A stretch of 61,600 bases of DNA from Spirochaetota bacterium (GTDB lineage Bacteria; Spirochaetota; UBA4802; UBA5550). Below the pieces are notes generated by a model. The model saw only the letters and a list, made by a program, of their open reading frames with translations. It was not told the origin of the DNA and searched no databases. Location: contig QKCL01000074.1 of assembly GCA_003246895.1 (NCBI GenBank), positions 1 through 61,600 of the forward strand, given 5' to 3'. The position numbers and the translations under genes were made by a program. This document shows positions 34,378 through 48,161 of the stretch, one piece after another (the stretch's first letter is position 1; each line of letters starts with the position of its first letter).

Positions 34378-37300
34378 TCAGAACAGTTTCAGCTGTCTGT
34401 CCTCTTCTTTTTTTCTGTTCTGTGAATCAAGGAGGTTTTCAGGAATATCACCGGCATAACTGCTCTGCATGTTTTTCATCTTCCTGCCCTTGAGAATGCG
34501 TGATTCTGATGATGTCAGATAGACCTTTCTTTTCGCACGTGTCATGGCAACATAGGCAATGCGCCTCTCCTCAAGGTCATCATATTCCCCGAACATAGAA
34601 AATGGCACTATGCCGTTTTCAAAACCAGGTATAAAAACAGTATCAAACTCAAGGCCCTTTGACGCATGTATTGTCATGAGAGAGACAGCATCAAGACCCG
34701 GGCTGTAGTCATCCTCTGGAGAAGAAAGCGACTCAAATTTCAGCACCTCCTCAATGGAACTGTATCTTCCAAGCATCTGACACAGATGATTCTCGTCATA
34801 TTCAAGATCAAGATACTCCATGACAGCCATAAATGTGTAAGCAAGACCCTGCCCGGAATCAAGAATATGTACAAGATCACTGTCTCCTTCCGGAATTACA
34901 GCCGCTATTTCAGCAACGGCCTTCCTAAGATTCATTGCAAGTACTTCATCGGCCGACCCGGTTATTTGAAAGGGAATTCCGTGCTGCTCAAGGGACGAAG
35001 CAATGGCAGAGAAAAGCAGGGATGTTCTGCATATTACGGCGATGTTCCCGGGGGACAGTGCACTCTCCATTCCATCAGAAAGGCCGCTGTCAATTGAAAA
35101 CGACCTGACCCCGCCCAGGATTCTTTCAATTTCAGAAGCGATAAAATCTGCCTCATCTGTATGAAACCCGAATCTCCCCGCAAATACCGGCTCACCCTTT
35201 ACCATGCCCCGAAGTTCATGCTCCGACCTGACAACAGATGATGCCGCCGAAAGAACAGTATCAGGACACCTGTAGCTTTCATCGAGAGCAATTTCACTGA
35301 CCGGGGAAAAATCCTCCCTGAACCTGTCTATGAACTTCACATCCGATCCCCTGAATCCGTATATGGCCTGGTTCCTGTCTCCTATAATGAAAACTGAAGT
35401 TTTAGATTTATCATAGAGGAGCTTAAGAAACATGTACTGTATTGCATTAATATCCTGAAATTCATCCACAAGAATATACCCGAACCTGCCCTTCCATTTT
35501 TCACGCACACCGCTTTCCCCATGAAGGAGTTTTACCGGCAGATACACAAGGTCATCGATATCAAATATATTGTTGCTCACCAGAAACTCTTCATAGACCG
35601 CATAAAAATCAACCAGAACATCCGTCAGGCCCTGCTTGTAATCTGAAATGCGGGAGAGCTCCTTCTGAAGAGTTTTCGGGTCATGTAGTTTCTCTTTCTT
35701 TATAAGTCTAACAATCTCGTCCCTGTCGGCAATTCTGAAACCGTCACATCTTCCGGTCAGCAGAACATTCTCTTCAAGGACCTTGAGACCAAGGGAATGG
35801 AATGTGGAAACCGAAACACTTGACCTGACGGAATATACAGAGAGCCTCTCCTCCATCTCCCTTGCAGCGCGTATTGAGAAAGTCACTGCCGCAATTTCTA
35901 TTTCGCCCTTTGAAACATAGTCGCTGAACAGTATTTTTTCAACGAGAACCCTGGTCTTCCCAGCCCCGGGACCGGCCATGACCATGACATTTCCGCTGCA
36001 TTGAACAGCAAGCCTCTGCTTTTCATTGAGGCTTATTTCAGTTCTTCCCGATTCCTTTTTCACGGCCCCATTTTTGATCATGGATTTCACGAAACTCTTG
36101 ACGGATGATCTTTCAACACTTGAGGCAGATTTCTCCAATCCTGATGAATCTGCACATGCTTCGGAACTCCCCTGATCCACGACTGATTCAAAGAGGGAAC
36201 CAGACTCATCCTTTACGGTTTTCCCATCAGGGAATACAAAGATCCGCCCGAACTCTCCGTCGTAACCGGACCTGATGGAAACATCTCCCTCCCTGAGCCT
36301 TTTTATCCCTTCCGCGTATATCTCCCCGCAGCTTCTGCTGATCTCATCAATCTCTGCGTTGAGAAAGATGTAAAACTCTGAACCTGCGCTTTTTATAAGA
36401 CGGAAATACTCCTCCTGAACCTTCCTTGAAGATGAATTTTTGACCCCCAGTATTTCACTGACCATATCGGGAAGCTGGGTTATTGAATAAAATTCCTTTT
36501 CAGCAGGAGATTCATCTGCGCTCTCCCTGTCACTCAGTTCAGAAACACGGTAGAGAACCCCCTTTGTAACCTCCCTGCCGCAGACCGGACAGATGCCGTT
36601 ATGAGACACTGTTTCTTCCGGAGTCCAGACGATTCCGCACTTCCTGTGACCGTCCAGATGATACTTGCCCTCTTCGGGAAAAAACTCGACTGTTCCCACA
36701 AATCCATTATCATATTTCAGCGCATCATACATGCCCTTAAAGCTGAACTCGCAGTCAAAGAGATTTGCTTCACGGCCCAGCTTTTCAGGAGAATGGGCAT
36801 CGGAATTTGAAACCAGCCTGAACCTGTCCAGAAAGCTGCAGATCCGGTTCATGGGAGGGTCGCTTGAAAGCCCTGTCTCAAGTGCAAATATATGCGGAGT
36901 TAAATCTTCATAACATTCATCAATTGTATCGAATCCTGATTTCGACCCCAGAACTGAAAACCATGGGGTCCAGATATGTGCAGGTATGAGAAATGAATGG
37001 TCAGATGAATCAAGGACCATTGCAAGAATATCCTTTGAGTCAATCCCCAGAATGGGCCTGCCGTCTGCCCTGATATTCCCCATAGTATCCAGGCGGGTCT
37101 GAACTTTCATGAGTGAGTCAAAATCCGGAAAAACACAGAGATTATGAACCTTTCTTACTCTTTCATTTTTTTTGTATATGCTGCTTAGTTCACCGGTGAG
37201 CATAAAGAAAATCTCCCGGGGAATATTTTCATGATCAAGCTCCCTGGACTCCCTGAGGCGGTACTTCTCCTTAAGCCTGAAAAACCCGTTATCACATGGT

Positions 37301-37470
37301 TCAAGTTTTTCCCTGAGTTCCATGAACCATCCGGGATGCACACAGTCCCCGGTGCCTATAACATTTATACCCTTGATTCTCGCCCAATATTCGAGGTATT
37401 CGGGAACAAGTTTTCTGCTCGTGGCAAGGGAGAAGTGTGAATGTATATGAAAATCAGAAATATATTTCAA
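34378..37470 (-). CDS. EndoQ-like PHP nuclease fused to UvrD/Rep-type helicase
   Basis: 1030-residue fusion. Residues about 1-425 match the EndoQ/TIGR00375 family: PHP metal motifs DFHIHSH (H8, H10), GTGDCVHPG, IPAHIWTPW and SNSDAHSP, then a zinc site C278 plus CPVC (294-297). EndoQ nicks DNA 5' of deaminated bases and abasic sites. A Ser/Glu-rich linker (about 425-475) leads to a complete SF1A helicase: LNEKQRLAVQ, Walker A GPGAGKT (500-506), VDEFQDINAIQ, GDRNQAIYGFRG, DESYRCP, TIHASKGLEFDTVF and YVAMTRAKRKVYL. I prefer the TTG at 37470, with AGGTGG five bases upstream, over the GTG at 37479. Together: nick at a damaged base and unwind from the nick. Confidence 0.88.
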   Translation of the reverse strand: MKYISDFHIHSHFSLATSRKLVPEYLEYWARIKGINVIGTGDCVHPGWFMELREKLEPCDNGFFRLKEKYRLRESRELDHENIPREIFFMLTGELSSIYKKNERVRKVHNLCVFPDFDSLMKVQTRLDTMGNIRADGRPILGIDSKDILAMVLDSSDHSFLIPAHIWTPWFSVLGSKSGFDTIDECYEDLTPHIFALETGLSSDPPMNRICSFLDRFRLVSNSDAHSPEKLGREANLFDCEFSFKGMYDALKYDNGFVGTVEFFPEEGKYHLDGHRKCGIVWTPEETVSHNGICPVCGREVTKGVLYRVSELSDRESADESPAEKEFYSITQLPDMVSEILGVKNSSSRKVQEEYFRLIKSAGSEFYIFLNAEIDEISRSCGEIYAEGIKRLREGDVSIRSGYDGEFGRIFVFPDGKTVKDESGSLFESVVDQGSSEACADSSGLEKSASSVERSSVKSFVKSMIKNGAVKKESGRTEISLNEKQRLAVQCSGNVMVMAGPGAGKTRVLVEKILFSDYVSKGEIEIAAVTFSIRAAREMEERLSVYSVRSSVSVSTFHSLGLKVLEENVLLTGRCDGFRIADRDEIVRLIKKEKLHDPKTLQKELSRISDYKQGLTDVLVDFYAVYEEFLVSNNIFDIDDLVYLPVKLLHGESGVREKWKGRFGYILVDEFQDINAIQYMFLKLLYDKSKTSVFIIGDRNQAIYGFRGSDVKFIDRFREDFSPVSEIALDESYRCPDTVLSAASSVVRSEHELRGMVKGEPVFAGRFGFHTDEADFIASEIERILGGVRSFSIDSGLSDGMESALSPGNIAVICRTSLLFSAIASSLEQHGIPFQITGSADEVLAMNLRKAVAEIAAVIPEGDSDLVHILDSGQGLAYTFMAVMEYLDLEYDENHLCQMLGRYSSIEEVLKFESLSSPEDDYSPGLDAVSLMTIHASKGLEFDTVFIPGFENGIVPFSMFGEYDDLEERRIAYVAMTRAKRKVYLTSSESRILKGRKMKNMQSSYAGDIPENLLDSQNRKKEEDRQLKLF

Positions 37471-37572
37471 AATGACCACCTATACTTAAAGCTGATAATT
37501 AAACAATGTATATTTATTATAAAAATACAAGCAGTAAAAAACATCAAAACACTTCCTTTGATAAATTTAGTG

Positions 37573-38246: not shown

Positions 38247-38906
38247 ATGAGAATATTCATTATCTTTATTTCTGCAATTCTAATAGTTTCAGGATGCGGA
38301 GATGCAAAAGATGGCTATTGGGAGACAGTCATATCAGATGATTTTAACAGAGCCGATGGAGCTCCAGGATCCAGTTGGACAGTACAAAAAGGTTCCTACG
38401 CGCTGCTTGGAATATCAGAAAACAGTGTTCAATACACATCAAATTATGATGATGATACAGATGATGATGAAGAATCATATGCAGGGTTAATATATCCAGA
38501 CAATATCAATAATTCCCAAATTAAATCTTCTATAAAGGTGATGACAGAGGATAACTTTGACAGGATTGAATGTATCGGATATAAATTTTCAATCTATCCC
38601 AGCGGTAAAACTTTTTTTCTTGTTTTTTCGAGTGAATATTTTGCAATTATAGACAACAATGATGTTATTTATTCATCCATGTCTGTTACACTACTATCCA
38701 ATTCAACATATTATTTAAAAATGGAGGCCCATGGATCCAATCTGGGTGTCTTTATTTATGATTCAAATAACGTTAAAAAATATGAAATAAATACAGTTAT
38801 CGATAATTATTCTTCTGTATCACTTGGTTTTGTTTTTTTAGGCAATGGCCTCTTAAGCACAAAAGTTGATGATTTTGAAATTATGTCATATAAGGAATTA
38901 GATTAA
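38247..38906 (+). CDS. lipoprotein with lectin/glucanase-like beta-sandwich
   Basis: 219-residue predicted lipoprotein. Hydrophobic leader ends at lipobox VSGC (Cys near residue 17). The mature chain opens DDFNRADGAPGSSW, a phrase typical of concanavalin-A-like/LamG-type jelly rolls that begin DDFnr, and ends VDDFEIMSY; an Asp/Glu-rich patch lies between (residues about 68-76, possible Ca2+ contact). No catalytic residues can be assigned. It lacks a clear operon partner. AT content is higher than its neighbours. Function unknown; a surface carbohydrate-binding role would fit. Confidence 0.72.
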   Translation: MRIFIIFISAILIVSGCGDAKDGYWETVISDDFNRADGAPGSSWTVQKGSYALLGISENSVQYTSNYDDDTDDDEESYAGLIYPDNINNSQIKSSIKVMTEDNFDRIECIGYKFSIYPSGKTFFLVFSSEYFAIIDNNDVIYSSMSVTLLSNSTYYLKMEAHGSNLGVFIYDSNNVKKYEINTVIDNYSSVSLGFVFLGNGLLSTKVDDFEIMSYKELD

Positions 38907-39331: not shown

Positions 39332-41014
39332 ATGAGAAGAAATATTGCCATGGCATTTCTCCTGACTGCTGCATTTGGAATTTTCTCACCATTCTCATGC
39401 AGCAAGAAGGATGCCGATGATAAAAAAGTTGTAACAGAACAGGCAGGAGACTTTGTCAGCGGTGACAGAATAAAGGTTCCCCTCATTGCCTGGGGTGCGG
39501 ATCTCATTGCAATTCATGCCAACGGCGACAGCGAAAAGACAGTGAAGGGATCCCTCTTTGACAAGGAGGGACTTAACATTGAACTTTTCAGGGAAGATGA
39601 TTTCAGCAAACAGGTAGACATGTTCATCCGGGGAGAAATTGTGTTTCTCCGCGGCACTATGGGCATGCTTAATGCCGCATCAGAGAGACTTAATTCCAGT
39701 TCACAAACCAGGCCGGTAGTTATTTTTCAGCATTCATGGTCAGCCGGCGGTGACGTACTTGTAGTCAAAAGCGGTATCAAATCAGTAAAAGATTTAAAGG
39801 GAAAGACTGTGGCGATTCAAAGTTACGGGCCCCATGTGGATTACTTTCTCAAACTTTTAAAGGATGCAAGGCTGAAGCCATCAGATGTTAAGATACAGTG
39901 GACCAAAGACCTCATCGGCCCCAAGGGGGACACACCAATGTCAAAGTTCTACAGCTCTTCGGTTGATGCGGTTTTTGTTATTATTCCCGATGCTCTGGCC
40001 CTTACATCAAACGGCACTGTCGGCACAGGGGCAGAGGATTCCTTCAAGGGAGCGCGCATACTTTTATCGACCAAAACTGCCAACAGGATAATCAGCGATG
40101 TATATGTGGTGAGAAAGGACTACTTCAACAAGAATAGAAAAGACGTTGAGAAGTTTGTAAAAGCACTTCTTAAATCTGAAGAGGAAGTCAGGGACTCATT
40201 TAAAAGCAGGGCATCTGAAGGTTTAGTAAAACTCCTCAGTTCCGGCGGGAAACTTCTCCTGGACGATTCCGGCGCAGCAGATGATGTAAAGGGGATGTAC
40301 TATGATGCCGAAATTTCAGGCTTTGATGGCAACTACAAGTTTCTTGCAGATTCAAATTATCCCCGTAACTGCATGCGCCTGACTTCGGAAATTCAGGATT
40401 CACTGATAGATATCGGTATAATAAAGAAAAAGTCAAGGATCGAGGCGGCAGACTGGGACTTCAATGAGTTAAAGAAGGGACTGCGCTATGCGAACGTAAA
40501 GGTCTCATCCAGATTCAATCCCGGTAAAATATCCACCATAGCGGAAAAAATAAGCAGAAAAGAGGATTCTTCACTTTTCAGATTTGATATTTTTTTCCAG
40601 CCCAATCAGAAGAGCTTTTCCGTTTCAACCTACAGGAAAGAGTTTGACCGTGTAATAGATTTCGCATCAACCTATGGCGGCGCTCTAATTACAGTTGAGG
40701 GCCATTCCGATCCAATGGGTTATCTCCGCAAACAGCAGGAAGGTGCCGATCAGATTCTGCTCAAAAAGATAAAACAGTCGGCAAGGAACCTGAGCTATAA
40801 TAGGGCCGGTTCTGTCCGGGATGAGGTAATAAAATACGCTAACTCAAAAGGGATCTCCCTGGATCCGAACCAGTTTTCAACCATAGGCCACGGCATTGAC
40901 AAACCGGTATTCCAGATACCTAAGTCAAAGGAGCAATGGCGGACCAATATGCGTGTTGAATTTAAAATAATCCAGGTAGAGGCAGAAGAAGAAGTATTTA
41001 AACCGCTTCAATAG
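39332..41014 (+). CDS. solute-binding protein fused to OmpA-like domain (lipoprotein)
   Basis: 560-residue envelope protein. Lipobox PFSC (Cys near residue 23). Residues about 45-385 form a periplasmic solute-binding fold of the NMT1/TauA kind: RIKVPLIAWGAD, GEIVFLRGTMGMLNAA, VKSGIKSVKDLKGKTVAIQ, and DVYVVRKDYFNKN. After a linker, residues about 430-555 are an OmpA/MotB C-terminal domain (FDIFFQPNQKSFS, ITVEGHSDPMGY, NRAGSVRDEV, TIGHGIDKP) that should bind peptidoglycan. AAAGGCGG precedes the ATG. No ABC permease or ATPase genes are nearby, so it is more likely a sensor or structural binder than a transport component. First gene of a four-gene unit. Confidence 0.85.
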   Translation: MRRNIAMAFLLTAAFGIFSPFSCSKKDADDKKVVTEQAGDFVSGDRIKVPLIAWGADLIAIHANGDSEKTVKGSLFDKEGLNIELFREDDFSKQVDMFIRGEIVFLRGTMGMLNAASERLNSSSQTRPVVIFQHSWSAGGDVLVVKSGIKSVKDLKGKTVAIQSYGPHVDYFLKLLKDARLKPSDVKIQWTKDLIGPKGDTPMSKFYSSSVDAVFVIIPDALALTSNGTVGTGAEDSFKGARILLSTKTANRIISDVYVVRKDYFNKNRKDVEKFVKALLKSEEEVRDSFKSRASEGLVKLLSSGGKLLLDDSGAADDVKGMYYDAEISGFDGNYKFLADSNYPRNCMRLTSEIQDSLIDIGIIKKKSRIEAADWDFNELKKGLRYANVKVSSRFNPGKISTIAEKISRKEDSSLFRFDIFFQPNQKSFSVSTYRKEFDRVIDFASTYGGALITVEGHSDPMGYLRKQQEGADQILLKKIKQSARNLSYNRAGSVRDEVIKYANSKGISLDPNQFSTIGHGIDKPVFQIPKSKEQWRTNMRVEFKIIQVEAEEEVFKPLQ

Positions 41015-41027
41015 CAAGGAGATGAAT

Positions 41028-41771
41028 ATGCGTATTAAGATAAAACATATAATGTATTTAATACCAATTCTTTTTGCCGGTGTTTTTGTGTTCAAAGATA
41101 TTTTTTTCAGCAGCGTGAATGGCAGAGATAAAAAATCTCTTTCCATAGATAAAGCCGCAGCTTCAGGACTCTGGTACATGAAGTTTTCTGAAAATGAAAA
41201 TGTTGTTCCCGGAGAAATCTCCCGCAAAAACTATTACATAATTTTTGACGGTTCCGGCAGCATGTCAGGAAAAAAGATTGTGACAGCAAAAGAGGCACTG
41301 AGGCATTTTATAAAAGTAATTCCGGCAGGAGCGAATGTGGGACTCTCGGCATTTGACCAGAAGGGCAATTTTGAGAGGGCAAAACTCGGAACACAGAGGG
41401 ATGAAATAATCAGGCAGGTGAATAATATTGCCGCCGGCGGTAAAACTCCACTTGGAGAAGCTGTTGATACTGCCTATGCAAGTCTGGGAAAACAGGCAAG
41501 GAAGCAGCTCGGTTACGGCGAATATAATCTTGTAATTATTACAGACGGGATGGCAACAGACAGTTCCCACCTGGTAAAGGTTGTACAGCAATTACTGTCA
41601 GATTCTCCAATAACGGTTCATACAATAGGTTTTCAGATCGGCAAAGGCCATGTGCTGAATCAGCCCGGCCGGATTTATTATAAAACAGCAAGTAATTTCA
41701 AGGAGCTTTCAAAAGGGCTTGAGAGTGTTCTTGCTGAACTGAAAAATTTCACGGTATCAGAGTATAAATAA
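41028..41771 (+). CDS. membrane-anchored von Willebrand factor A domain protein
   Basis: 247-residue protein. N-terminal helix (about 8-24, IMYLIPILFAGVFVF) anchors it, with a VWA domain facing the periplasm (about 65-240). The metal-dependent adhesion site is intact: FDGSGSMSG, the Thr of GGKTPLGEA and the Asp of IITDGMATD. ATG at 41028 has AAGGAG six bases upstream; ATG 41022 is too close to it. It sits between the two SBP-OmpA genes and the following gene begins one base after its stop, so these three proteins probably work together. VWA domains mediate metal-bridged protein contacts. Confidence 0.85.
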   Translation: MRIKIKHIMYLIPILFAGVFVFKDIFFSSVNGRDKKSLSIDKAAASGLWYMKFSENENVVPGEISRKNYYIIFDGSGSMSGKKIVTAKEALRHFIKVIPAGANVGLSAFDQKGNFERAKLGTQRDEIIRQVNNIAAGGKTPLGEAVDTAYASLGKQARKQLGYGEYNLVIITDGMATDSSHLVKVVQQLLSDSPITVHTIGFQIGKGHVLNQPGRIYYKTASNFKELSKGLESVLAELKNFTVSEYK

Positions 41772-41772
41772 T

Positions 41773-43332
41773 ATGAAAGGATCAATGCATATTCTACAGA
41801 GAATTATAGGTGCGACAATTCTCATCAGTCTGGCAGGGGGAACAATATACACTTTTCTCCATAAAAAAGAAGAAGCTGTCAATATCACATATAGTACGAG
41901 TGATGCAGGATCCCTCAAGGGGGATATATCAATTGCACTGGACAGCTGGATAGGCTACTTCCCCTTCAGGTCACCGGTATTCGGAAAACTGATGCGTGAT
42001 TCAGGGTACCGCGTGAAGCTCGTTGATGACAAGGCGGACTATGCGGGCAGAATGGAGATGTTAAGGAAGGGGGAGATTGACCTTGCTGTATATACCGTTG
42101 ACTCCTACCTTCTTAACGGCAGGAAGGGGAAATTCCCCGGGGTTATCGTAACGATAATTGATGAATCAAAGGGCGGAGATGCTATCGTTGCATGGAAGGA
42201 AAAGGTAAGCAATATTGAGAGTCTCAAGAAATCCGGGGATTTTAAGATTGCCTTTACACCCTCCTCCCCAAGTGAACACCTGCTAAAATCAATGGCATTT
42301 CATTTTGATATACCCTCTATTCGGGACAGGAAAGGGAAATGGGCAATTAAAGTAAATGGAGCGGAAGAGGCATTTGAAAAATTTATAAAGAAAGATGCCG
42401 ATATCGCGGTTCTATGGGAACCGCATGTTACAGAGGCACTGTCACACCCCGGGACTGTAAAACTCATCGGTTCAGAGGATGTTGAAAAACTCATAGTTGA
42501 TATTCTGGTCGTGAACAGAAATTTCGCCGAGAAAAAACCGGAAGTTGTGAAGCTTTTTCTTAAAAACTATTTTGATACACTCAATATCTACAATTCGGAC
42601 CCACAAAGGCTGCATAAAGATATCTTTAAACAGGTTGTCCTTTCGGAACAGCAGGTTCAGTACATGCTTAAGGGTGTTAAATGGATTAACTATCCCGAAA
42701 ACCTCCAGTGGTTCGGATTATCACAGAATCAGAGCAACAGCCGCCCGGAACTTGTTGAATCAATAAATTCCACAATAAATATTCTTCTGGGAAATAATGA
42801 CTTTGATACAAACCCTCTTCAGGACAAGGATCCCTACACCATTATTAATTCACATTTTATAAAGGGTCTTTACGGAGTTTCAGCACAGCACAAGCCGGCA
42901 GGAACAGCAGATGGGGATTCCCTTGCCAGACATTTTTCAAAAATTTCCGACAGGGAATGGAAAAATTTCCGGGTTGTGGGTTCATTGAAATTCCGTCCCA
43001 TTTCGTTCCGTAGCGGAACCTCTCTGCTTGATGAAAACGGCCGCTCAGAGATAAAACAGATAATAGAAAGTGTCAGGCATTACCCAAATTTCAGAATACT
43101 AATAAAGGGCCATACAGGTCTGCGGGGAGATATCAATGCCAACCTGAATCTTTCAAGGGACAGGGCCGGCGCTGTTAAAAGAGAATTTCAATATTCATAC
43201 AATATTGATCCCAACAGGCTCCTTGTAATGGGAATCGGCCCCAAAGAGCCTTTGCCAAGAAATCCGGAAGAATCCGATAGGGCTTATGACAACAGGCTGA
43301 AAAGGGTTGAAATACTCTTTGTTACTAAATAA
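41773..43332 (+). CDS. second solute-binding/OmpA fusion protein
   Basis: 519-residue paralogue of the gene at 39332, with a plain N-terminal TM anchor (about 8-26) instead of a lipobox. Residues about 45-330: NMT1/SsuA-like binding fold (ISIALDSWIGYFP, EMLRKGEIDLAVYTVDSYL, DADIAVLWEPHVTEAL). Residues about 395-519: OmpA-like domain with FRSGTSLLDENGRSEI, GHTGLRGD, SRDRAGAVK and the closing RLKRVEILF. The ATG at 41773 lacks a ribosome site; translation may be coupled to the VWA stop one base away, or begin at the ATG at 41785. Ligand unknown. Confidence 0.85.
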   Translation: MKGSMHILQRIIGATILISLAGGTIYTFLHKKEEAVNITYSTSDAGSLKGDISIALDSWIGYFPFRSPVFGKLMRDSGYRVKLVDDKADYAGRMEMLRKGEIDLAVYTVDSYLLNGRKGKFPGVIVTIIDESKGGDAIVAWKEKVSNIESLKKSGDFKIAFTPSSPSEHLLKSMAFHFDIPSIRDRKGKWAIKVNGAEEAFEKFIKKDADIAVLWEPHVTEALSHPGTVKLIGSEDVEKLIVDILVVNRNFAEKKPEVVKLFLKNYFDTLNIYNSDPQRLHKDIFKQVVLSEQQVQYMLKGVKWINYPENLQWFGLSQNQSNSRPELVESINSTINILLGNNDFDTNPLQDKDPYTIINSHFIKGLYGVSAQHKPAGTADGDSLARHFSKISDREWKNFRVVGSLKFRPISFRSGTSLLDENGRSEIKQIIESVRHYPNFRILIKGHTGLRGDINANLNLSRDRAGAVKREFQYSYNIDPNRLLVMGIGPKEPLPRNPEESDRAYDNRLKRVEILFVTK

Positions 43333-43343
43333 GGAAAAAGAAA

Positions 43344-44321
43344 ATGTTTGATAAGAAAAGTATAAACAAGTCCTATACGTACAACAATGATCATAATCCA
43401 GTGCTTCCTGCAGATACATGGTTTCAAAATCCGCCTGAAGGGCTCACTCTCTTCATTGTTCTATATACCCTGACATGCCAGTGGTCACAATGCCTTGGGT
43501 GCAACCTCCCCTCTCAGATGTCGGAGTATCATATCAGTTATAAAAATATCATAAAGCAGATAGACTATGTATTCAACCATATACTCGATGATAAAAAGAA
43601 AACAGAACTGAAAAAAATAATACTATCAAACAACGGCTCTGTTCTGGATGAAAAGACATTTTCAACCACTGCCCTCCTTTACTTCATTGCAATGATGAAC
43701 ATGAACTGTCCCAACATTGATACCCTGACGATTGAAACAAGGCCTGAATATGTTGACTGGGAAGAGTTGGAGATAATAGCCCGGGCCCTGAAAGAGGGTG
43801 ACACTCCTTCAAATCTTGAAGTCGCCATAGGATTTGAAGCCTATGATGAAATCATCCGCAATGAGTATTTTAAAAAGGGCCTGAATCTCGAAGTCTTTGA
43901 AAAGTTTGCAGAAAAAATGGGAAAATACGGTTTTAAACTTAAGACATATTTCATGCTTAAACCTGTGCCGCAGATAACGGAAAAAGAAGCCATTGAGGAT
44001 ATAAAAAATGGAATAGATTATCTGGACGGAATCGCAAAAAAATACAGTCTTTACATAAACATGCACCTGAACCCCACCTATGTTGCACGGGGTACACCTC
44101 TGGAAGATGCCTTTAAGAATGGAGAATATGGGCCGCCCCGGCTTTCAGATGTGGTTGAAATAGTCAAACATGCGGAAGGAAAAGATATTTCTCTTTATAT
44201 AGGCCTTGATGATGAAGGTCTGGCAGTTGAGAACGGATCCTTTATTCGTGAAGGAGATGAAAATCTGGTTGAAAAACTCTCCGAATTTAACAGAACAGAA
44301 AATTACCGGCTCTTCATCTGA
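43344..44321 (+). CDS. radical SAM protein, TIGR01210/RaSEA-like, Cx4Cx2C
   Basis: 325-residue radical SAM enzyme. The cluster-binding motif is C45-x4-C50-x2-C53 (LTCQWSQCLGCN), unlike the standard Cx3Cx2C. LSNNGSVLDE and IETRPEYVDW resemble the Elp3-like TIGR01210 branch that includes the archaeosine enzyme RaSEA. It is shorter than Elp3 and has no GNAT domain. It follows the SBP-OmpA gene by 11 bases with AAGGAA upstream, so it is the last gene of that unit. No tRNA-modification partner is adjacent; queA at 55031 is 11 kb away. Its substrate is unknown; the operon suggests an envelope-related or signalling substrate. Confidence 0.78.
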   Translation: MFDKKSINKSYTYNNDHNPVLPADTWFQNPPEGLTLFIVLYTLTCQWSQCLGCNLPSQMSEYHISYKNIIKQIDYVFNHILDDKKKTELKKIILSNNGSVLDEKTFSTTALLYFIAMMNMNCPNIDTLTIETRPEYVDWEELEIIARALKEGDTPSNLEVAIGFEAYDEIIRNEYFKKGLNLEVFEKFAEKMGKYGFKLKTYFMLKPVPQITEKEAIEDIKNGIDYLDGIAKKYSLYINMHLNPTYVARGTPLEDAFKNGEYGPPRLSDVVEIVKHAEGKDISLYIGLDDEGLAVENGSFIREGDENLVEKLSEFNRTENYRLFI

Positions 44322-44919
44322 CTCCGAGTTTCATGGATTTTTCAAGGACTTCGACCTCTGTGTCAAGGTCCAGAAAGTCATCCTCATAGAGCTTCTGCAG
44401 CTGATTCTCGAAGTTTTTTGCAATGAGATCAAGGACTGATTCAGCCTTTTTCAGGATCTTTTTATTCTCATCATTTTCCTGCTTTGAAAGGGCTATGTAC
44501 TGTTCAATGATCCGTATGGTGGTGTCAAGGTAGTAGTTAATAAACTGCCTAGCCACCCTCATGTCCTTTGGGTCACTCTCGAAATCCTCATAAATTTTTT
44601 CTGTAACCATATATATCTTTTCAATTTTAGTCTTTACCTGTTCATTTTCAGCTTCAAGTGCGAGTTTTTTCATTTTACGTATTCTATTACGGCCGTTTCT
44701 AACAACTTTGCGCAGGGTACCGGTATCAATATTATGCTTTCTGGCTATTTCTTCAATTCTGGGATCAATTTGTTGGGAAGCAGTGACGAGAAAACTCCCG
44801 AGCAGGCCTCCGGCACCAGCAAGTAATGATATAAGTATGCCTATTTCAAAGACAGAGTAAAACAGCGCAAAGGCCGCGGCACCGCATATTATTGAAAGTA
44901 TATATCTAATGTATTTCAT
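44314..44919 (-). CDS. XpaC-family membrane protein
   Basis: 201-residue protein with two N-terminal TM helices (about 4-42) and a long helical cytoplasmic part, matching the XpaC family (named for 5-bromo-4-chloroindolyl phosphate hydrolysis). Typical features are KMKKLALEAENEQVKTKIEKI and the C-terminal acidic EDDFLDLDTEVEVLEKSMK, which has the look of a docking tail. XpaC proteins usually pair with the TelA/KlaA toxic-anion-resistance protein; no telA is in the window. The gene converges on the radical SAM gene, overlapping by 8 bases, which supports a link to that unit. Confidence 0.85.
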   Translation of the reverse strand: MKYIRYILSIICGAAAFALFYSVFEIGILISLLAGAGGLLGSFLVTASQQIDPRIEEIARKHNIDTGTLRKVVRNGRNRIRKMKKLALEAENEQVKTKIEKIYMVTEKIYEDFESDPKDMRVARQFINYYLDTTIRIIEQYIALSKQENDENKKILKKAESVLDLIAKNFENQLQKLYEDDFLDLDTEVEVLEKSMKLGVR

Positions 44920-46627: not shown

Positions 46628-46685
46628 TTTATAGTCAATTTTTATAAAAACAGAGCAAAACAGTTTTCCTTTGCCGGAGAAAGAG

Positions 46686-48161
46686 ATGGAACAGGAACTA
46701 TACCATGAGATTTTCGGGTCCATACTGGATCGCCATGAAATGACACCGTACCTGCTTCAAAACTGCAATGATTACAATGATGCAATAAGTCAGACGACAA
46801 AAATGATGGCAAACCGGGGTTTTGATGCTACCGGAACATTCCTCTCTGATTCCGAAAAAAAAAGAGCTATTAGCTATGTTATGCTTTCTCTGGATTATTT
46901 TCTTGAATGGCTCTTCCCTTTTCTCCTGCATCAGCTTCATCTCCTGCACTCATTGCACTCTGAAAGACAACAACTTTACAGATTATGCATTGACGCTATT
47001 GATACGATCAGGAAAACCCTCTCTGATGTGACTTTTATTGAATTGATAACATCAGACCCCCGTCATCTTTTTCTTTTAGCATCATCCGCAAAATATCCCG
47101 GACTATTTGCCGGACAAACAGAGTATCCTGAACATATTCCCTGGTTATGGCAGCGCATAAGCTGCGGCACTCTCAAAATGTGTCACCTGATAAAGTCCAT
47201 AGAGGAAGACAGCCAGGACATTAACGACTTTACACGTCTTGGATTTTTCCTGCAATCAAAGGGACTAAGTCTTGAAAACCTCTATGACTATAACTGGAAT
47301 TCACCTAAGGAACTTCCTACGGAAGAAAACGCAAGAAGAGCCTTTGTAAAGGTTGCGACATTTTTCATGAAACTTGAAGAGTCAGTTCACAGAAATCAAA
47401 AGGACGGTACACTTACCTTTGTGAGCGGAGACGGTGTTAGTGTTCCCATTACCCGGATAAGAGCCCGGTTAAAAAGTCCGGAAAGCATGTTCACAAAACT
47501 CGGAAAGAGTATTGAAAACGAAGTTTTTGATATCAGAGACATTCTTGCCATAACATTTATAATTGAAAACAGGAACGATGCCCTCACCCTCTTTCATGCC
47601 TTGCAGAAACGGGGTGTTATACTGCAGGAGAATACAGTTTCACCATCAATAACACAGACCCTTTTTGACTCCCCCGAAGAGATGCACGAAGCTGTTCGTT
47701 GCTTAATGATAAACCTTTCCCGTTCATCGGGGGAAAACAAAACACCTGACGAAAATTTCATAAGGGAAAACTCTGTACATTTTTTTAATGCACTTAACGT
47801 CGCACGAATAGAAAACAATTACTCATCCGGCGGACATAGAAAATTTCAGTGCAAGATAAATTTTTCACTGCCCATACACCGGGACTGGGACACAAATGTC
47901 ATTCTTGTACCCGGGACAGATGACTATGCAAAGAGACACACAAAAAAAATAGTTACTACACAGAACACCATACCCGTTGAACTCAGGATATCAGATCTGC
48001 ACAGCTGGGTGGAAACTGAACAACACGGCGAGACTCACCATGACGCCTACAAATGCAGGCAGCTGCTGTCGGTCATGACACGGCTCTTTTCCCCACTCTT
48101 TCAATTTGACAAAAAAGATATGGCCTCACTTAGAGAGGACCAGAAGATTCTGTACCCATGA
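46686..48161 (+). CDS. orphan protein with RelA/SpoT-like nucleotidyltransferase domain
   Basis: 491-residue cytoplasmic protein. The N-half (1-235) is helical and unfamiliar, with a His/Leu-rich stretch near residues 76-93. The C-half resembles the RelA/SpoT synthetase fold: RARLKSPESMFTKLGKS (about 259-275), then DIRDILAITFII with D285 at the metal-binding Asp position, and VELRISDLHSW with E432 at the second acidic position. ETHHDAYK then matches the ExxxH..YK end motif. The Arg that normally follows the first Asp strand is Thr, and about 145 residues lie between the two acids, more than in RelA. No HD hydrolase, TGS or ACT domain. ATG 46686 has GGAG six bases upstream. It could make (p)ppGpp or another pyrophosphorylated product, or be inactive. 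Confidence 0.7.
   Translation: MEQELYHEIFGSILDRHEMTPYLLQNCNDYNDAISQTTKMMANRGFDATGTFLSDSEKKRAISYVMLSLDYFLEWLFPFLLHQLHLLHSLHSERQQLYRLCIDAIDTIRKTLSDVTFIELITSDPRHLFLLASSAKYPGLFAGQTEYPEHIPWLWQRISCGTLKMCHLIKSIEEDSQDINDFTRLGFFLQSKGLSLENLYDYNWNSPKELPTEENARRAFVKVATFFMKLEESVHRNQKDGTLTFVSGDGVSVPITRIRARLKSPESMFTKLGKSIENEVFDIRDILAITFIIENRNDALTLFHALQKRGVILQENTVSPSITQTLFDSPEEMHEAVRCLMINLSRSSGENKTPDENFIRENSVHFFNALNVARIENNYSSGGHRKFQCKINFSLPIHRDWDTNVILVPGTDDYAKRHTKKIVTTQNTIPVELRISDLHSWVETEQHGETHHDAYKCRQLLSVMTRLFSPLFQFDKKDMASLREDQKILYP

Follow-up and report, generated by a model that had tools for sequence, protein, structure and literature searches.

OmpA-fused solute-binding proteins, a VWA protein and XpaC in a spirochaete gene cluster: a probable reduced version of a wider module with TelA and an ABC importer

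VWA proteins are associated with TelA and XpaC in stress clusters of the Ter/TelA type. The pair made of an XpaC-family membrane protein and TelA is also found in the xpaC-yaaN (telA) operon of Bacillus subtilis, a core member of the sigma-W regulon (PMC3498285), and in lmo1966-1967 of Listeria, where a bacteriocin raises xpaC-telA and mutation of telA increases the sensitivity to nisin 4-fold (PMC12791056). These operons of Bacillus and Listeria were, however, reported without wall-tethered solute-binding proteins (SBPs), a VWA protein or an ATP-binding cassette (ABC) importer. Here we analysed a stretch of 61,600 nucleotides (the window) from a spirochaete (contig QKCL01000074.1; 3.57 Mb assembly, 95.7% complete), in which a compact cluster at positions 39332-44919 encodes two SBPs fused to OmpA-like domains (SBP1-OmpA and SBP2-OmpA), a VWA protein, a radical SAM protein and an XpaC protein. 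An XpaC-TelA pair like that of Bacillus and Listeria is present on another contig (C57) of the same genome and, as described below, in a wider module to which the cluster is related. The SBP-OmpA pair at the window locus and, in relatives, the importer distinguish these loci from Ter/TelA clusters; no terB/C/D/E/Z-type gene was found by Pfam and NCBIfam among the scanned window neighbours, the rest of the genome being unscanned for Ter families.

Two other groups of systems are close to the cluster. With the NitT/TauT importers (TauABC, SsuABC, NrtABC; TIGR03427), SBP1 and SBP2 have the TauA/SsuA fold in common, and the relatives of the window cluster also have a third binding protein (SBP0), a permease and an ATPase; unlike those importers, the module fuses two SBPs to OmpA-like domains, anchors SBP2 and adds VWA, XpaC and TelA, and the window locus is importer-free. 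On the other hand, the Vibrio plasmids pSEA1 and pIFO15640 (L128, L129) carry in one run the ATPase in front, then SBP1-OmpA, VWA, SBP2-OmpA, a membrane protein, TelA, SBP0 and the permease; the SBP2-OmpA is annotated there as 'phosphate ABC transporter substrate-binding/OmpA family protein'. They differ from the window in that the complete module is on a plasmid, with telA codirectional and without the radical SAM gene. A literature search, outside which the review on Ter systems lay, gave no account of the SBP-OmpA/VWA/XpaC/TelA/ABC combination, and the novelty of the module is therefore stated with reserve.

The gene unit proposed when only the sequence had been read was confirmed by the open reading frames and by the domain matches. 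On the forward strand, SBP1-OmpA (39332-41014), with a TauA/SsuA-fold domain and a C-terminal OmpA-like peptidoglycan-binding domain, is followed after 7 bases by the VWA gene (41022-41771), after 1 further base by SBP2-OmpA (41773-43332) and, 11 bases later, by the radical SAM gene (43344-44321); the XpaC gene (44314-44919, reverse strand) is convergent with the latter and overlaps it by 8 bases. Likely ribosome-binding sites are AAGGAGATGAATATG before the VWA gene and AAGGAAAAAGAAAATG before the radical SAM gene. Neither a permease nor a telA gene lies within 39332-44919. The grouping of SBP-OmpA and VWA is far beyond chance, because the two are found together again in numerous genomes from several phyla. 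A promoter and terminator scan barely exceeded shuffles and was not used.

In Pfam, SBP1 matched NMT1 (9e-12) and OmpA (1e-4, under the OmpA cut-off), SBP2 matched OmpA (3e-13) and NMT1 (5e-5), and the VWA protein matched VWA (2e-14). The sequence-only reading had taken the two SBP-OmpA proteins as paralogues and the metal site of the VWA protein as intact. Both statements hold: the two SBP-OmpA proteins are genuinely paralogous (26% over 479 amino acids, z 19.5 against shuffles), and the motifs of the metal ion-dependent adhesion site (MIDAS) are kept in the homologues, DxSGS in 25/26 and TDG in 26/26. In the structure models (predicted local distance difference test, pLDDT, 80-81) the N-terminal domain of both proteins has the TauA/SsuA/NrtA fold, with Z scores of 29.8 for SBP1 and 27.8 for SBP2 to TauA (6ssy), and the OmpA domain of SBP2 resembles solved OmpA-like peptidoglycan-binding domains (5m38, Z 16.7; 7rjj, Z 16.1). 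The Asp and Arg of the motifs GHxD and NxSxxRA are the diaminopimelate ligands of OmpA/Pal domains. In SBP1 each motif is present in 24 of the 25 homologues; in SBP2 the Arg motif is found in 12/15 and the GHxD Asp in only 1/15. The pair is thus asymmetric, SBP1 keeping the Asp and 14 of the 15 SBP2 homologues being without it. An invariant Cys ends the signal of SBP1 in the close relatives (Cys23 in the window), which makes this protein a probable lipoprotein. N-terminal membrane anchors are predicted for SBP2 and VWA, XpaC has a hydrophobic N-terminus and is membrane-bound by hydropathy, and TelA has no transmembrane segment; this topology suggests a chain going from the wall, through the periplasm and the inner membrane, to the cytoplasm.

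To place the cluster in a wider context, species genomes were scanned, and 27 loci were returned. The full order comprises eight genes, SBP1-OmpA, VWA, SBP2-OmpA, an XpaC-like membrane protein, TelA, SBP0, permease and ATPase, and is exact in Nitrospinota. The first five are consecutive in two spirochaetes (L018, L039), in Nitrospinota (L019) and in Spechtbacteria, of the Patescibacteria (L037); L039 has in addition the radical SAM gene, and L019 has SBP0, permease and ATPase. Two distant spirochaetes (L078, L079) show a seven-gene run of SBP, SBP-OmpA, permease, ATPase, VWA, XpaC and TelA. Versions with fewer genes were found in Spirochaetota, Verrucomicrobiota, Patescibacteria (where telA is kept and ABC genes are missing) and Pseudomonadota. 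Among the latter, the locus of Rhodobacteraceae and of one Chromatiales genome encodes an OmpA protein, a weakly XpaC-like membrane protein, SBP1, VWA and a 199-aa protein of no assigned family, and telA-xpaC lies elsewhere in the genome in the Rhodobacteraceae tested. An independent check for the module comes from a search with SBP2 alone, which yielded another three genomes of Nitrospinota. As predicted, the XpaC-like gene and telA were adjacent in 3/3, the importer likewise in both genomes with enough contig, and the whole eight-gene order was present in one. As a side observation, SBP1, VWA, SBP2, the XpaC-like protein and TelA are all retained in the Spechtbacteria genome, which is about 0.9 Mb in size, and an AAA ATPase comes after them (L037, 14235-18243). 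The 199-aa protein, without Pfam match, is conserved after VWA in the alphaproteobacteria (L021, 7462-8058; L022-L038), and in L167 (5663-6316) it lies between an OmpA gene and XpaC-TelA.

The link to TelA had been drawn, at the first reading, from XpaC and VWA only, and it is now supported by shared operons: TelA and an XpaC-family or XpaC-like gene stand in the SBP-OmpA/VWA operon in the spirochaetes L018, L039, L078 and L079, in the Nitrospinota L019 and L192-L194, in the Spechtbacteria and on both Vibrio plasmids. For the proteins of L019, L037 and L039 the term XpaC-like refers to position and membrane/coiled-coil character only; their identity with true XpaC, which in the window has a clear match (PF10112, 5e-32), was discarded since neither a Pfam match nor an hhalign link was obtained. 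A 220-aa protein of the alphaproteobacteria aligned weakly to XpaC (E 4.5e-4), and a profile search of solved structures with TelA, XpaC and the radical SAM protein gave no match. In the window genome, telA is on contig C57 beside a second XpaC gene, and in four close spirochaete relatives it is likewise elsewhere in the genome beside a second XpaC. We found telA in 5/5 spirochaete genomes bearing the trio of SBP1, VWA and SBP2 versus 37/143 others (Fisher p 0.0015, uncorrected for phylogeny) and in 18/20 module-bearing genomes. Since phylogeny is uncorrected, this statistic is supportive only, and more weight lies with the linkage in the same operon across several phyla. In spirochaetes most telA genes adjoin only an XpaC gene, without SBP or ABC genes; hence the telA-xpaC pair is the commoner unit, to which the SBP part looks like an addition.

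SBP2 homologues are present in four of 148 related genomes, besides the window's own. In these four close relatives, SBP0, permease and ATPase are directly upstream of SBP1, VWA and SBP2, and XpaC comes after SBP2 in all of them, convergent in three and codirectional in one; in one relative (G035) the cluster lies partly on one contig and partly on another. Counting the window, XpaC adjoins SBP2 in 5/5 genomes of the clade with sequence there, in either orientation. SBP0 scores above the cut-off of TIGR03427, a 'putative urea' SBP. This match gave the idea of a guanidine or other riboswitch, which was rejected, as Rfam found four tRNAs and nothing else in the window, and had no match in seven module loci. 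SBP0, permease and ATPase are all absent from the window locus, and the window genome, at its 95.7% completeness, where an assembly gap could still hide such genes, had no match to the permease of a relative and none to TIGR03427, the SBP0 family, at 1e-30. The sequence-only reading was therefore right that no ABC permease or ATPase is present, in the window and, by search, in its genome; what did not stand is the transporter-free system that it implied, since four close relatives have the operon at the cluster. It had staked itself on the SBP genes not lying beside ABC permeases in relatives, and it is beside a permease, to the letter, that they lie in these spirochaetes. The transporter is nevertheless part of the conserved module and not a substitute for it. 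In the SBP1 tree the window falls, with full support, inside the clade of the close relatives, with L018 and L039 outside; because the window is nested among four importer-bearing relatives, a derived loss of the importer is the simplest reading. Taken together, the window has the order SBP1-OmpA, VWA, SBP2-OmpA and the adjacent XpaC, and is best described as a reduced chromosomal version, in which the importer was probably lost, XpaC kept, telA-xpaC2 placed elsewhere and the radical SAM gene added.

The radical SAM gene, which had been taken as a member of the unit, is not conserved. Its product, with the motif CX4CX2C at Cys45/50/53, matched in NCBIfam the RaSEA-like family TIGR01210 (2e-40, 138.8 bits, under the cut-off of 212.15) and is thus a distant relative of the archaeosine enzyme RaSEA rather than a family member. 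The search covered the 148 relatives, 392 genomes around the genome G149, which carries L039, and 22 module-bearing genomes, and strong matches were obtained only in the window genome, in G149 and in G150 (Nitrospinota); in the other 19 module-bearing genomes searched the gene was absent. It adjoins the cluster in the window genome and in G149, and in G150 it is unlinked on the upstream side, the contig ending inside the gene. Two adjacencies of so rare a gene suggest a real accessory, not a core part. Moreover, G149 has an importer, on another contig, as well as the radical SAM gene, so that the latter is not a simple replacement for the importer.

Giant phages, too, have either the module or a part of it. 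An uncultured 595-kb phage (L134) and the large IMG/VR contigs L160, L162 and L164 have SBP1, VWA, SBP2, SBP0, permease and ATPase, and in the huge phages read in detail a membrane protein and, at the TelA position, an unassigned coiled-coil protein lie between SBP2 and SBP0. Bacillus phage G (L133, gp243-gp250) and 25 IMG/VR loci (L135-L159, one of which is phage G itself) have permease, ATPase, two small genes and SBP-OmpA; neither VWA nor TelA was recognised in loci of this type. The viral scan with the spirochaete SBP1 profile was empty, and the giant-phage relatives surfaced only with phage-derived queries. The run shared by these giant Bacillus-type phages is fixed: the ABC permease and ATPase are followed by one gene like gp246, by another like gp247 that encodes a membrane coiled-coil protein, and by a single SBP-OmpA gene or a pair of them. 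A PspA-like identity, suspected by eye for the giant-phage coiled-coil protein, had no Pfam support, and for the phage-G-type set the best match of a profile search of solved structures was a kinetochore coiled coil (0.005).

How could such a set of proteins work? We suggest, giving it about an even chance, that wall-tethered SBPs of TauA/SsuA fold and a metal-dependent VWA protein form a trans-envelope complex, which would inform XpaC/TelA, at the inner membrane, of the state of the ligand. SBP1, as a probable lipoprotein with the expected meso-diaminopimelate ligands, and SBP2, anchored in the inner membrane, would bind the same or a related small periplasmic ligand; the ligand-driven closure of the SBPs, with the VWA protein stabilising it, would alter how the peptidoglycan is coupled to the inner membrane; XpaC would relay this state to the cytoplasmic TelA, and a membrane or envelope-stress response would be adjusted. 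In the full module the importer would take up the same ligand, and in the window the sensing part alone would be left. The radical SAM enzyme, which has no assigned place in this scheme, may modify one of the components or produce a ligand. The envelope-tethered sensor of the sequence-only reading still fits best, in a form for which we infer the signal flow at every step, and a sensor of envelope state or ligand is favoured by the sigma-W data of Bacillus and the bacteriocin and nisin data of Listeria. Several observations weigh against it: telA is not in the operon at the window locus, and we therefore file the window as a reduced relative of the module and not as a full member; SBP2, whose OmpA domain is missing the usual Asp, may be unable to bind the wall; the giant phages have, in the TelA slot, a coiled-coil protein without TelA match; and the role of TelA/XpaC itself is unsettled.

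The same genes could instead serve nutrient scavenging, with the wall-tethered SBPs as a periplasmic ligand store feeding a NitT/TauT importer, TelA, XpaC and VWA only organising the assembly and the window copy being a decaying remnant. The importer genes beside the trio in the four close spirochaetes, in Nitrospinota, in Verrucomicrobiota and on the Vibrio plasmids, as well as the 'putative urea' score of SBP0, are in keeping with this, and the window genome without permease or TIGR03427 match is what a remnant would leave. However, none of the five window genes is broken and their motifs are conserved despite the importer loss, Spechtbacteria likewise have trio and TelA without ABC genes, import needs neither two divergent paralogous SBP-OmpA proteins nor a VWA protein, and TelA/XpaC are stress proteins; scavenging is, on these grounds, rather unlikely.

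Improbable, and clearly more so, is anti-phage defence or a phage-encoded superinfection exclusion at the envelope, similar to Zorya, whose MotB-like ZorB is also wall-anchored. Giant phages and Vibrio plasmids do carry the module or part of it, and a weak ZorB match was found in the OmpA part of SBP2 (2e-5); yet this match spans only residues 441-501, the module is without a ZorA-like motor, helicase or nuclease, ZorA and ZorC/D or ZorE were not found, the other four window genes and the telA product had no PADLOC match, and PADLOC gave otherwise only a marginal PbeC match (0.004). That unrelated neighbours were packed together by chance, as the lack of the radical SAM gene from most related clusters and the opposite strand of XpaC could suggest, is hardly credible and, except for the radical SAM gene, already contradicted for SBP1, VWA, SBP2 and XpaC, as the order of the trio persists across distances of up to a phylum, and XpaC remains a neighbour whichever way it is oriented.

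Other genes of the window were also noticed. A 219-aa probable lipoprotein of no confident family (38247-38906, forward strand) lies between two tRNA genes and the cluster; a UvrD helicase fused to a PHP-type N-terminus (1033 aa) is encoded at 34378-37479 on the reverse strand, and a TIGR04552/TIGR04562-related protein with a weak RelA/SpoT-like region at 46671-48161 on the forward strand.

TelA/XpaC proteins are widespread and tied to nisin, tellurite and envelope stress, with no agreed mechanism. A conserved operon joining them to wall-tethered SBPs and an ABC importer provides a testable input for the pathway and partners to purify. Tractable hosts are offered by its carriage on Vibrio plasmids and by giant phages, among them the cultured Bacillus phage G, which has the ABC and SBP-OmpA part. 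In its broadest form, which we put forward tentatively and with the balance leaning against it, the module would be a trans-envelope signalling machine of at least five phyla, plasmids and giant phages, in which importer-type SBPs, as wall-tethered sensors, gate an XpaC/TelA stress response through a metal-dependent VWA protein, the phages using it to manage the host envelope. In any case, its carriage on plasmids and phages suggests that envelope state may be managed by mobile elements and phages.

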